This document shows, piece by piece, positions 11,635-23,475 of a stretch of DNA of 23,475 nucleotides; the first letter of the stretch is position 1, and each line of letters opens with the position of its first letter. Under the pieces are notes generated by a model. It had not been told where the DNA came from. It searched no databases and worked only from the letters and a program-made list of their open reading frames with translations. Origin of the DNA: a virus. The stretch lies in IMG/VR virus record IMGVR_UViG_3300005914_000102, positions 1 through 23,475 of that record; one strand, 5' to 3'. A program made the position numbers and the translations under genes.

Positions 11635-12081
11635 TTACATGCCGTAATGCGTTGCTAATTCTTCGGGATCTGCTTTTCTAATTCCCTTTCGGGTTAGCCA
11701 CATTTCGGCTTCCTCCTTTTTTACAATGTTATATCCTTTAGAAATTCTACCAATTCCCTGCCAATTCATATTCTTATCTGAGTGAATTGCAGTATCTTTA
11801 TCCCCTGGTTTTGGCGTGGTTGATTCTGGATTAAACACTTTATCTTTAAAGTTGTCTGCCGTTGCAGTGGAAATAATTCCACTTTCATCTGTCTTGCTGG
11901 CAGACTTTGGAGGTTCTCTATTTGGATTGACTTTATCTGATCCGATCACACTCATTTGAGCATCAACTCCAAGCAGGGCTGAAACAATTTTTGTTTTTGT
12001 TTTTGCTCCACTAAGATCAATACCATTTTCTTTGGCATAGCTTTTAAGTTCAACAACAGTCATTTTATTAAATTCCGACAT
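11635..12081 (-). CDS. SAP/HeH-like domain protein next to the capsid gene
   Basis: A 148-residue hydrophilic protein with SD AAAGGTG 7 bases before ATG 12081. Residues 7-38 (MTVVELKSYAKENGIDLSGA then KTKTKIVSAL) match the helix-extended-helix look of HeH/LEM, SAP or Rho-N domains, which bind nucleic acid or act as small interaction modules and are often found in phage proteins beside the major capsid gene. A polar linker of about 70 residues leads to a C-terminal segment (GRISKGYNIVKKEEAEMWLT, then ADPEELATHYG) of a type I have seen at the ends of head-associated phage proteins. It could be a minor capsid or head-completion protein. The N-terminal domain is a confident reading, the role is inference. 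Confidence 0.6.
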   Translation of the reverse strand: MSEFNKMTVVELKSYAKENGIDLSGAKTKTKIVSALLGVDAQMSVIGSDKVNPNREPPKSASKTDESGIISTATADNFKDKVFNPESTTPKPGDKDTAIHSDKNMNWQGIGRISKGYNIVKKEEAEMWLTRKGIRKADPEELATHYGM

Positions 12082-20488: not shown

Positions 20489-23475
20489 TTAAGCAGAAAC
20501 TAGGTCAACCACATCACACGAAGCAGCACCCGCTGAACATGCAAGCTCTTGCGAGCCAGTTGTGGTATCTTCTAGCTCATATAATGGCAAAGATCCCCAA
20601 GGAATTTCCTTTGGCATCTTAGATGATAAAACCTTGTATTCTTCTTGTGTAATCTCCTGATATGGTGCTTGCTTGTACGAATGCTCTGATGCTGGTAGAA
20701 AAGATACCCCACCAATAGAATCAAAGTTTTTGAATACCCAAGCACCAACATCTAGCCACTCATCTTCTTTTACGTTGATAGTTACAGAAGGATTGTGCTC
20801 TGTCCAGTGAGTCCTATATACCTTCCAAATTTCAAGATGGTCTATTGCTGAAATGTCTTTTGTGACTACTGCATTTTTTGGAGCCTTGATGGGGAAAGAA
20901 AAAATAGTAGTCATGTCTGGTTTCATTACGTCTGGTTCATTTGGAATGCCAAAATCCTTAAGAAATACAGTTAGTGGGTCTTTGTTGTCTGCCCGAACTG
21001 TACGAATGTAATACTCTGAATACCAGGGGTGAATTCCACTGGATACGCCCGCCAACTGCGAAACAGTTCCTGATGGCTTTACTGTGGTAATCGCAACAGA
21101 TGGATTTATATTAAGAGCCTCTGCCTCTTTCCTATTAGACTCAACCGATGATTCACGAAGTCTGTCAAGCATCTCTGCAAGACCTTTGTGGACGGTACCA
21201 GTTAATGGATTACCAAAAATTCCTGTAAGAGACACGCCTAGGAGTCTTTCTTCTTCACAGTTGTCTTTCCACGACTTACGAATATACTTAAAGTTTGTTA
21301 GACTAGACTGCCAAGTTCCAATAATGGTGGCAATATTAATCTTTTCCTTTAGTGTTTCTTCTGTATCGTTTGCATCAACAACAACCTCTGTTAGGTTGCA
21401 GAATTCATTTGCACGAAGGAGGATTTCTCCACATCGTCTCATAGTGATTCCATTTGCACAAAGAATTCTTCTTTCATCTTCTTTAAGGCAGAAAACATCC
21501 TCATTTCCATCTGGATTTACACTTTTTACCGTTGCGTATGTGTTTTGCTTCCTTGATCTTGTAAAGATTTTTTCAGCAAGTTCTTGTTTATATCCACCAA
21601 GGAATCCAACATGTTGAGAAAATTCATATGCATTTGCCATAACTACCAATTCAAAATTTTCTTTTGTAAAATACTTCTTTCCCCCCCCTTTACCGTCTGG
21701 CATCATTGTACTTTTTGCTGGACGGCGAGAATATACACTTGAATTAATTCCATTAGCTAACAGTATTAGCTGAACATCAGATAACATTTTTTTATTGCTT
21801 TGATTTATTCGTGCAGAACAAGAACCAACCTTATTATATTTATTTACTGTTCCATCGCAAAACGCTAATGCTGCAACATAAAACCTTGCTTTTCGTGAAG
21901 CAGCATATTGAATAAAATGATTAGGAACGGTATGCTTTGACTCTGCATTGAATCCATATTTTTTTTCTAAATGTGCAGACAAAAAAGTGCTTCTAATTTC
22001 TACTTTGTCCTTGAAGGGAATGTTAAGAATGTGAGAGTTGGAGAACGGTTTACTTCCTAAAGGCTTAATGTCTAGTTCATTTATGTCTTGAATATCTTGA
22101 ATCCATCCAACAACCTCTTCTGCAATCCACTTATCTTTTCCCCATAAAACTATGTGACTTACATCTCTTTTTGTTTTATGTTTTGTAAATGTTCCATCTC
22201 CAGCAATAAGCCCCATAAGGATTGCTTCTTTTTCTTCAAGAGTTTCTGGAATTCCCAATGACTCTTCTGGTAAATAGCCACGGGTAATAAAAATTTTATC
22301 TCCTGGATTTAACTTTTCCGCTTCAATCATACCATTTTTTGTCATAACTAAATGATCTGGAGTTAGTCGAACTGAATATCCACTCGTTGTCTCAATTTTT
22401 ACAACATCTGCATTTTTTTGAGTAAGGAATACCTCTGAAGCTTGCATTGTTTGGGGACTATATTTATTTTTTTTATCTAATATCCAATTACCTGCAAGCT
22501 CTTCTTCTCCTTTTGAAGAATCATAAGAAACTCTCCCATCAACAACAATATTATTTTTTTTACCATTCCTATAAGCCTCGTTAAAGCTAATCCATCCATT
22601 TTCTGTTAATAACATAGAATCTCCCGTAAGGCAAGGATTCGTTCCCTGTATCTTACTAGAGTCTCTTCTTCCAAACTTATCAGTATGTTTACGAACAGAA
22701 TCCATATTGTAAATACCGCGTTCGCCAGATTTTGACTCATATAGGTTGCGCCATTCACGAAGAAATTGAGCAGTGTTTGGCTTTGCATTATAAACTGCAG
22801 AGTTGTTTGCAAGTGCTCTCTGTCCTTCTGTTTCCCACCATTGACCAGACTTAGCCTTTGCCATTTCAAAGTCGTCTAGATTTGAAAGGGAAATTAAGGC
22901 ACTTCTACGGACTCCGCCAACTACTACTACTTCTCCCACCTTACACATGATATCGTGGGCCTCAATAGGCTTTAATCTTCTTCCCTTGGCAATCCTAAAC
23001 TGCTCTACGGTAAACTTGAATAAATCATTAAGTGGTTCTGGGCCTGATGCCCTTCCTCCAAAAGTTTTTAGCCTTGCCCCTGCTGGTCTAACCTTTGACA
23101 TGTCCCAGTTTGGAATTTGTCCAGTAACCAAAAGACCAATCAGCTCTTTATAAGATTTTGCCCAACCCAGCTTTGAATCTTCAACAACAATTGTAGTATT
23201 TGTCGGAAATAGCTCTTCTGCAATCACTGGAAGGATGTCTATGTGCTTCTGTTCAACAGAAAAACCAACACCTGTTCCATTCATAAGAATATACATGGCT
23301 TCATCAAATGATCTAAGACTATCTACCGCAATAAAGGCGCAATTGTAAGCTGAGATATGATCTCTATCTAGTGCTGGTCCTGCTGTCATAAGGGAGCGCA
23401 TTGATGGCATCACCTTGTGATTTAGGATTGCATCTTTAACTTGAGAAAACTTAATGTCATTTTTTTTATAGTTGT
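20489..23475 (-). CDS. nrdJ: Class II (adenosylcobalamin-dependent) ribonucleotide reductase with intein, N-terminus outside window
   Basis: This enzyme converts ribonucleotides to deoxyribonucleotides with a B12-derived thiyl radical, and would supply DNA precursors for phage replication. The frame is open from base 23475 to TAA at 20489, so the N-terminus is missing. Visible landmarks include VMPSMRSLMTAGPALDRD, AYNC (Cys at 23339-23341, matching Cys119 of the Lactobacillus leichmannii enzyme), NGTGVGFSVEQ, GGVRRSALISL, the split active site GTNP + CGEILLR (Asn406, radical Cys408 and Glu410 equivalents), FCNLTEVV (Cys at 21398-21400, Cys419 equivalent), VKPSGTVSQLAGVSSGIHPW, and a C-terminal ACSAGAASC pair that would shuttle electrons. 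From the first redox cysteine to the radical cysteine the extein is about 50 residues shorter than in the Lactobacillus enzyme. It lies upstream of the structural genes and ends in a hairpin. Confidence 0.92.
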   Translation of the reverse strand, partial: NYKKNDIKFSQVKDAILNHKVMPSMRSLMTAGPALDRDHISAYNCAFIAVDSLRSFDEAMYILMNGTGVGFSVEQKHIDILPVIAEELFPTNTTIVVEDSKLGWAKSYKELIGLLVTGQIPNWDMSKVRPAGARLKTFGGRASGPEPLNDLFKFTVEQFRIAKGRRLKPIEAHDIMCKVGEVVVVGGVRRSALISLSNLDDFEMAKAKSGQWWETEGQRALANNSAVYNAKPNTAQFLREWRNLYESKSGERGIYNMDSVRKHTDKFGRRDSSKIQGTNPCLTGDSMLLTENGWISFNEAYRNGKKNNIVVDGRVSYDSSKGEEELAGNWILDKKNKYSPQTMQASEVFLTQKNADVVKIETTSGYSVRLTPDHLVMTKNGMIEAEKLNPGDKIFITRGYLPEESLGIPETLEEKEAILMGLIAGDGTFTKHKTKRDVSHIVLWGKDKWIAEEVVGWIQDIQDINELDIKPLGSKPFSNSHILNIPFKDKVEIRSTFLSAHLEKKYGFNAESKHTVPNHFIQYAASRKARFYVAALAFCDGTVNKYNKVGSCSARINQSNKKMLSDVQLILLANGINSSVYSRRPAKSTMMPDGKGGGKKYFTKENFELVVMANAYEFSQHVGFLGGYKQELAEKIFTRSRKQNTYATVKSVNPDGNEDVFCLKEDERRILCANGITMRRCGEILLRANEFCNLTEVVVDANDTEETLKEKINIATIIGTWQSSLTNFKYIRKSWKDNCEEERLLGVSLTGIFGNPLTGTVHKGLAEMLDRLRESSVESNRKEAEALNINPSVAITTVKPSGTVSQLAGVSSGIHPWYSEYYIRTVRADNKDPLTVFLKDFGIPNEPDVMKPDMTTIFSFPIKAPKNAVVTKDISAIDHLEIWKVYRTHWTEHNPSVTINVKEDEWLDVGAWVFKNFDSIGGVSFLPASEHSYKQAPYQEITQEEYKVLSSKMPKEIPWGSLPLYELEDTTTGSQELACSAGAASCDVVDLVSA
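21434..22633 (-). mobile_element. LAGLIDADG intein in the RNR, with atypical C-terminal splice residues
   Basis: A 400-residue in-frame insertion between GTNP and CGEILLR. It begins with Cys (CLTGDSMLLTENGW, Hint block A), has block B with the TxxH pattern (GYSVRLTPDHLV), two LAGLIDADG motifs with their acidic residues (LMGLIAGDGTF and YVAALAFCDGTV), and a block F-like stretch (DVFCLKEDERRILCANGITM). The element should therefore combine splicing with a homing endonuclease. Removal would restore TNPCGE exactly. Oddly, it ends in Arg-Arg before the Cys+1 instead of the usual His-Asn, so the Asn cyclisation step has no visible residue. Its base composition is lower in GC than the flanking RNR in hand-counted blocks (21/60 at 22261-22320 and 17/60 at 22441-22500, against 31/60 at 23041-23100 and 23/60 at 21061-21120). 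Confidence 0.88.

Follow-up and report, generated by a model that had tools for sequence, protein, structure and literature searches.

The window analyzed here is the whole of a 23,475-nucleotide stretch, positions 1 to 23,475 of the IMG/VR virus record IMGVR_UViG_3300005914_000102. On its minus strand, the open reading frame (ORF) at 23473..20489 encodes a class II ribonucleotide reductase (RNR); among solved structures, its best relative is the Lactobacillus enzyme 1l1l. The surrounding genes belong to a structural module of a tailed phage and encode the portal, head maturation protease, major head protein, and tape measure. The reductase is interrupted by an intein flanked by TNP and CGEILLRANEF, the catalytic-cysteine motif of the enzyme; TNPC aligns to Cys408 of 1l1l, the radical (thiyl-radical) cysteine of that enzyme. 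This intein ends in Arg-Arg and is one of 16 distinct inteins with this ending (15 besides the window's; hereafter, Arg-Arg inteins) that we found by scanning viral and genome contigs. The features of the intein and its exteins are as follows (handles of the form L002 are our own; L002 is a virus record from another metagenome).

22634..23473, minus strand: N-extein of the class II RNR; the gene starts beyond the end of the record
22631..22633, minus strand: Cys1, the N-terminal nucleophile of the intein, invariant in 14/14 Arg-Arg and 15/15 comparison inteins
21434..22633, minus strand: Arg-Arg intein of 400 amino acids, a Hint splicing domain split by a LAGLIDADG homing endonuclease (Pfam and model alignments)
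22448..22528, minus strand: residues 36–62, an insertion in the Hint domain of the Arg-Arg clade that is a gap in nearly all other relatives
22352..22363, minus strand: block B, T91-P-D-H94 (B:7 and B:10), with Thr and His invariant in the Arg-Arg and the other sets
22193..22219, minus strand: first LAGLIDADG motif (LMGLIAGDG)
21851..21880, minus strand: second LAGLIDADG motif (YVAALAFCDG)
21467..21490, minus strand: block F, with Cys382 (F:4), Lys384, Glu385 (F:7), and Arg389 (F:13 position)
21434..21439, minus strand: C-terminal Arg399-Arg400 (G:6 and G:7), codons AGA CGA, invariant in 16/16 members
21431..21433, minus strand: Cys+1, also the catalytic (thiyl-radical) cysteine of the RNR, aligned to Cys408 of 1l1l
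20489..21433, minus strand: C-extein of the class II RNR; ratio of nonsynonymous to synonymous substitution (dN/dS) relative to L002, 0.043

At the C-terminal junction, minus-strand positions 21442..21431 read ATG AGA CGA TGT, encoding Met, Arg, and Arg followed by Cys+1, such that the intein ends in NGITM-Arg-Arg, as a preliminary description of this DNA had reported. That description had also considered the other intein blocks intact, and Cys1, TPDH in block B, the two LAGLIDADG motifs, and NGI are all present; Pfam Intein_splicing scores above its cut-off, and LAGLIDADG_3 matches in two stretches. The junction pattern occurs once in the window and not at all in 100 shuffles. The preliminary description was likewise right that no single sequencing error accounts for the two arginines, and its estimate that more than one base change would restore His-Asn was an understatement, as six base changes separate the codons CAY AAY from AGA CGA; conversion of Gly-Gln to Arg-Arg takes two. 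The same residues are present in L001, a near-identical virus record (99.95% over 14,148 nt), in L002, whose intein is 98% identical to the window's at the nucleotide level, and in 14 other divergent members. The chance that a sequencing or assembly error at 21434–21439 created the arginines is thus negligible, having already been refuted by independent records. We also ruled out a different location of the junction and a frameshift masking a His-Asn, since Arg-Arg matches His-Asn, Gly-Asn, and Gly-Gln column by column before the same cysteine. The Arg-Arg ending is neither an error nor a product of decay.

A clade of Arg-Arg inteins

Viral contigs were scanned with the pattern NG[I/M]xxxx followed by CGE[I/M], with a family profile, and with the Arg-Arg block F alone; genome contigs were scanned with the profile. 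Although the preliminary description treated the ending as a single oddity, the 16 inteins recovered (in the window and L001, L002, L204, L205, L108, L209, L156, L161, L163, L188, L211, L214, L225, L235, L259, and L263) form one clade. All 16 occupy the same catalytic-cysteine site, beginning after NP (TNP, or PNP in L259) and ending in Arg-Arg followed by CGE or CSE. Among the 14 aligned full-length members, pairwise identity ranges from 30 to 97% (mean 44%). The two arginines are written by nine codon pairs (AGA CGA, CGT CGA, CGA AGA, CGT AGG, CGT AGA, AGA AGA, CGC AGG, CGC AGA, and CGA CGA), which indicates that the constraint is on the protein and excludes the idea that they are kept for DNA reasons, such as an endonuclease site. 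The neighboring NGI varies (NGC, NGL, NTV, or DGI) while Arg-Arg stays. Reading frames are intact in 15 of the 16; the L263 intein, whose end reads ADGITARR and then CGEI, has one frameshift in its record, which may be a sequencing error or mark a decaying copy, the two being indistinguishable here.

Recovering the family required a family alignment, as scans with the window intein as a single sequence yielded only two near copies and none in genomes. Outside this protein and this site, the Arg-Arg block F matched only in L233 and L238, both of which are frame noise. The only member outside viral contigs, L225, lies on a 3.2-kb contig in the metagenome-assembled genome of an uncultured small-genome bacterium. 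When 392 genomes from a single phylum were searched for its kin, only L225's own genome matched, and the contig may derive from a phage and have been binned together with the host.

The Arg-Arg inteins are a single group both in a tree of whole inteins (support 100/98) and in a tree of the Hint domain computed without the last two residues (98/94). In the latter, which is rooted at the midpoint for display, they join inteins ending in Gly-Gln, Gly-Asn, or Ser-Asn (100/99), apart from all His-Asn inteins (100/99). The comparison with His-Asn drawn in the preliminary description is thus not the apt one, as the closest relatives end in Gly-Gln or Gly-Asn. Inteins ending in Gly-Gln occur at the same RNR site in L120, L128, L142, L146, L166, L170, and L122, and most have Cys at F:4 and an acidic residue at F:7. 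This group is likely the ancestral type of the Arg-Arg clade.

AlphaFold2 modeled the window intein and its flanks with confidence (mean predicted local distance difference test score, 87). The whole model matches the TliVMA intein (7qsu) with Z 26.2 over 317 residues, and its splicing half matches the Mtu RecA splicing domain (2in8) with Z 17.9 and a root-mean-square deviation of 2.1. The model superposes from residue 1 to its last residue on residues 1..440 of the Mtu RecA intein, which places Arg400 at the position of Asn440.

Both the intein and its exteins are under purifying selection. For the intein, the window and L002, a recent pair, give a dN/dS of 0.44; the values are 0.14 for the window and L204 (synonymous divergence, dS, 1.8) and 0.24–0.40 for pairs on the other branch. 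Between the window and L002, dS is 0.037 in the intein and 0.84 and 1.71 in the exteins, where dN/dS is near 0.04; at precisely the two boundaries of the intein, identity falls abruptly from ∼98% to 77% and 88%. This contrast implies a recent arrival of the intein, by homing, in one or both of the two genes. The whole of the window intein has recently been transferred between phage genes that are themselves diverged, and it still homes. Across 13 records bearing an Arg-Arg intein (up to 340 kb, and possibly incomplete), we found at most one RNR large subunit per record, the interrupted one; the L204 record, which is short and encodes an RNR of the divergent monomeric type, gave no match in this search. 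Since no more than this one interrupted subunit was found in any record, RNR activity in these viruses probably depends on intein excision.

Several of the host RNRs contain further inteins. The N-exteins of L161 and L156 contain additional inteins upstream in the RNR frame, ending in CHN followed by CFVIGND and in VVHN followed by CFVHNPS, respectively. L204 has a further intein-like insert in its C-extein (VKPSG / C...SHN / TVSQL), giving two inteins in its RNR. In L002 (2324–3280; also in L003, L010, and L011), a second RNR intein at RANEF / C...YQ / CNL ends in Tyr-Gln and has both Cys F:4 and Glu F:7 (VYCFNEP), such that one L002 protein contains a Gln-ended and an Arg-ended intein. RNRs bearing Arg-Arg inteins are often multiply invaded.

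Proposed resolution of the branched intermediate

Step 3, cleavage of the C-terminal junction, usually relies on His F:13, His G:6, and Asn G:7 (PMC4031507). The Arg-Arg inteins have Arg at all three positions in the 15 members matched by one template, except that at F:13 two of the 15 (L205 and L263) have Lys and the other 13 Arg. All 15 have Cys F:4 and Glu F:7. At the same RNR site, all 27 His-Asn inteins have Asp at F:4, and only one has an acidic F:7. Cys F:4 together with an acidic F:7 is found in 15/15 Arg-Arg, 5/5 matched Gln-ended, and 1/32 Asn-ended inteins, counts that ignore common descent.

Given the conservation of these residues, Arg-Arg inteins probably splice. We consider it likely that they form a functional clade in which step 3 is arginine based or, at a minimum, independent of Asn, a reading that includes a protease-like variant. 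Judging from the parts that are intact, Cys1 would make the N-terminal thioester and the chain would then move to Cys+1, as in class 1 inteins. The conservation of the arginines suggests that the C-terminal junction would be cut by an arginine-based step in place of Asn cyclization, with Arg399, Arg400, and the Arg or Lys at F:13, together with Cys F:4 and Glu F:7, standing in for His F:13, His G:6, and Asn G:7. In the most likely single chemistry, which we propose only tentatively, an internal guanidine nitrogen of Arg400 would attack the residue's own carbonyl to form a six-membered δ-lactam. We favor the lactam because the nearest kin of the clade have a terminal Gln, a residue that likewise cyclizes into a six-membered ring (glutarimide). 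Inteins ending in Gln and Asp are able to splice by ring closure (PMC4031507), and Arg forms δ-lactams on activated esters in peptide synthesis (PMC3597280).

The preliminary description had named same-site Arg-Arg homologs known to splice normally as a refutation of its own reading; such homologs exist, and their splicing is probable rather than proven. Several points weigh against the arginine-based interpretation. The strong purifying selection on the exteins is partly older than the insertion of the intein and alone does not prove a working RNR. The guanidine group, with its high pKa, is normally protonated and a poor attacker of plain amides, and the lactam chemistry in peptide synthesis requires an activated ester (PMC3597280). 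Finally, a non-Asn end is not strictly required for the pairing of Cys F:4 with an acidic F:7, as the pair is also present in one Gly-Asn intein (L110), and the Gly-Gln inteins L122 and L142, with different spacing, have Cys F:4 without the acid.

One possibility, nearly as likely as the lactam although itself tentative, is that step 3 is protease like: Cys F:4, or a water activated by Glu F:7 or His B:10, would attack the Arg400 carbonyl, with the arginines forming an oxyanion hole, much as if a cysteine protease that cuts after Arg-Arg were built into the intein. Such a mechanism would sidestep the poor nucleophilicity of guanidine and make use of Cys F:4 and Glu F:7, which are invariant in the clade; moreover, Cys F:4 can be a nucleophile in class 3 inteins (PMC7765530). 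However, Cys is the second most common residue at F:4 in ordinary inteins and need not be catalytic (PMC4031507), and the requirement for Arg at −1 is left unexplained.

That Arg-Arg inteins are splicing-dead or cleavage-only remnants, leaving an RNR that is inactive or stays branched, is improbable. Mutation of Asn G:7 does block C-terminal cleavage in studied inteins (PMC4031507). However, the retention of Arg-Arg in 16 inteins, its many synonymous codon pairs, and the purifying selection on the intein (dN/dS 0.14–0.44) all argue against this idea, as does the fact that, over deep divergence, the exteins have stayed intact and Cys1, TxxH, and the two endonuclease motifs have been kept, with 15/16 frames intact. 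Dead inteins would be expected to decay rather than to maintain one exact new dipeptide. The preliminary description had allowed for either an unusual splicing route or a dead intein; the evidence favors the unusual route and speaks strongly against a dead intein.

It is also improbable, slightly more so, that splicing requires a partner enzyme, a host or phage protease that cuts after the dibasic pair. Arg-Arg is a classic dibasic cleavage site, and its invariance would be expected of one; yet this scenario leaves unexplained both the co-conserved Cys F:4, Glu F:7, F:13 Arg or Lys, and clade-specific insertion and the spread of the clade into viruses with very different RNRs. Least probable of these alternatives is a double thioester, in which N-S shifts at Cys1 and Cys+1 would be followed by transfer of the N-extein to the freed amine of Cys+1, the intein leaving in hydrolyzed or circular form. 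Although chemically coherent and resembling the direct-aminolysis route proposed for type A bacterial intein-like (BIL) domains (PMC4031507), this route needs no side chain at −1 and gives no reason for an invariant Arg there.

That a conserved clade has Arg in the places of all three step-3 residues implies cleavage by a chemistry of a new kind or a novel mode of coupling to a partner. On balance, we lean toward a fourth way of protein splicing, in which Arg resolves the branched intermediate through a C-terminal δ-lactam or an Arg/Glu/Cys active site. If true, such an intein could serve as a tool that leaves an Arg end or switches between thioester and cleavage.

Relation to known inteins

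In addition to the Hint fold and LAGLIDADG endonuclease, supported by Pfam domains and model alignments, all Arg-Arg inteins share with class 1 inteins a Cys at position 1 (Cys/Ser1), invariant T91 and H94 (Thr B:7 and His B:10), and an invariant Cys+1 (Cys/Ser/Thr+1). They depart from class 1 at G:7, where class 1 inteins have Asn, or Gln, Asp, or Glu, able to cyclize and all 16 have Arg400. Cys1 also sets them apart from class 2, which has Ala1 and no N-terminal nucleophile, and, despite Cys F:4, from class 3, which lacks Cys1/Ser1 and is defined by Trp B:12, Cys F:4, and Thr G:5; residues 96 and 398 of the window intein, where Trp B:12 and Thr G:5 would lie, are Val and Met. Nor, having Arg at G:7, are they C-terminal Gln inteins. 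The known C-terminal residues of inteins are Asn and its close analogs Gln, Asp, and Glu (PMC4031507). In these inteins the terminal residue is the one that cuts the C-terminal junction. We found no report of an Arg-ended intein in the open-access literature; subscription literature and InBase were outside the search, and priority is not established. There is a fair chance that, once tested, the clade will deserve an intein class of its own.

The Gln-ended class 1 inteins (Pab and Mma Pol II and CIV RIR1, and here the Gly-Gln inteins of L120, L128, L146, L166, and L170) share with Arg-Arg inteins the Hint fold, the larger clade, Cys/Ser1 and Cys/Ser/Thr+1 chemistry, and the RNR catalytic-cysteine site. 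Like the Arg-Arg inteins, the Gly-Gln set lacks the penultimate His and mostly has Cys F:4 with an acidic F:7. The Arg-Arg inteins differ in having Arg for Gln at G:7, Arg for Gly at G:6, Arg or Lys for His or Asn at F:13, and an extra segment that contains Trp50. This segment, inserted after residue 35, has conserved Ser36, Tyr37, and Glu45, and Trp50 is invariant. Given this grouping of the Arg-Arg clade with Gln-ended inteins, mutation could retrace the path by which Gln gave way to Arg.

The nearest relatives in named phages are the inteins of SPbeta bnrdE and of Staphylococcus and Brochothrix phage NrdE (L198–L200), with 29% identity over 99%. These also lie before the RNR catalytic cysteine and carry a LAGLIDADG endonuclease; however, they have a Gly-Asn end, Asp F:4, and a class I RNR host. 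Similarity to the window or L161 inteins led only to named-phage and plasmid records with <31% identity, and the four relatives inspected end in Gly-Asn or Ser-Asn. Canonical His-Asn class 1 inteins (L111, L133, L151, L226, and others) have the same extein context (STNP / C ... / CGEI) and the same combination of Hint and LAGLIDADG domains but differ in their His-Asn end with Asp F:4 and in belonging to a separate clade. Type B BIL domains resemble Arg-Arg inteins in having a Hint domain without the block G His-Asn. However, their host proteins are variable bacterial ones, and their activity is cleavage, not splicing (PMC4031507; PMC7765530), whereas Arg-Arg inteins occupy a conserved enzyme motif with Cys+1 and carry a homing endonuclease.

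Elsewhere in the window, the minus-strand ORF at 11635–12081 resembles the end of an endonuclease VII family (phrog_3281, E 9e-9) over its first 35 residues only, the rest being unmatched; this ORF possibly encodes a truncated or fused nuclease.
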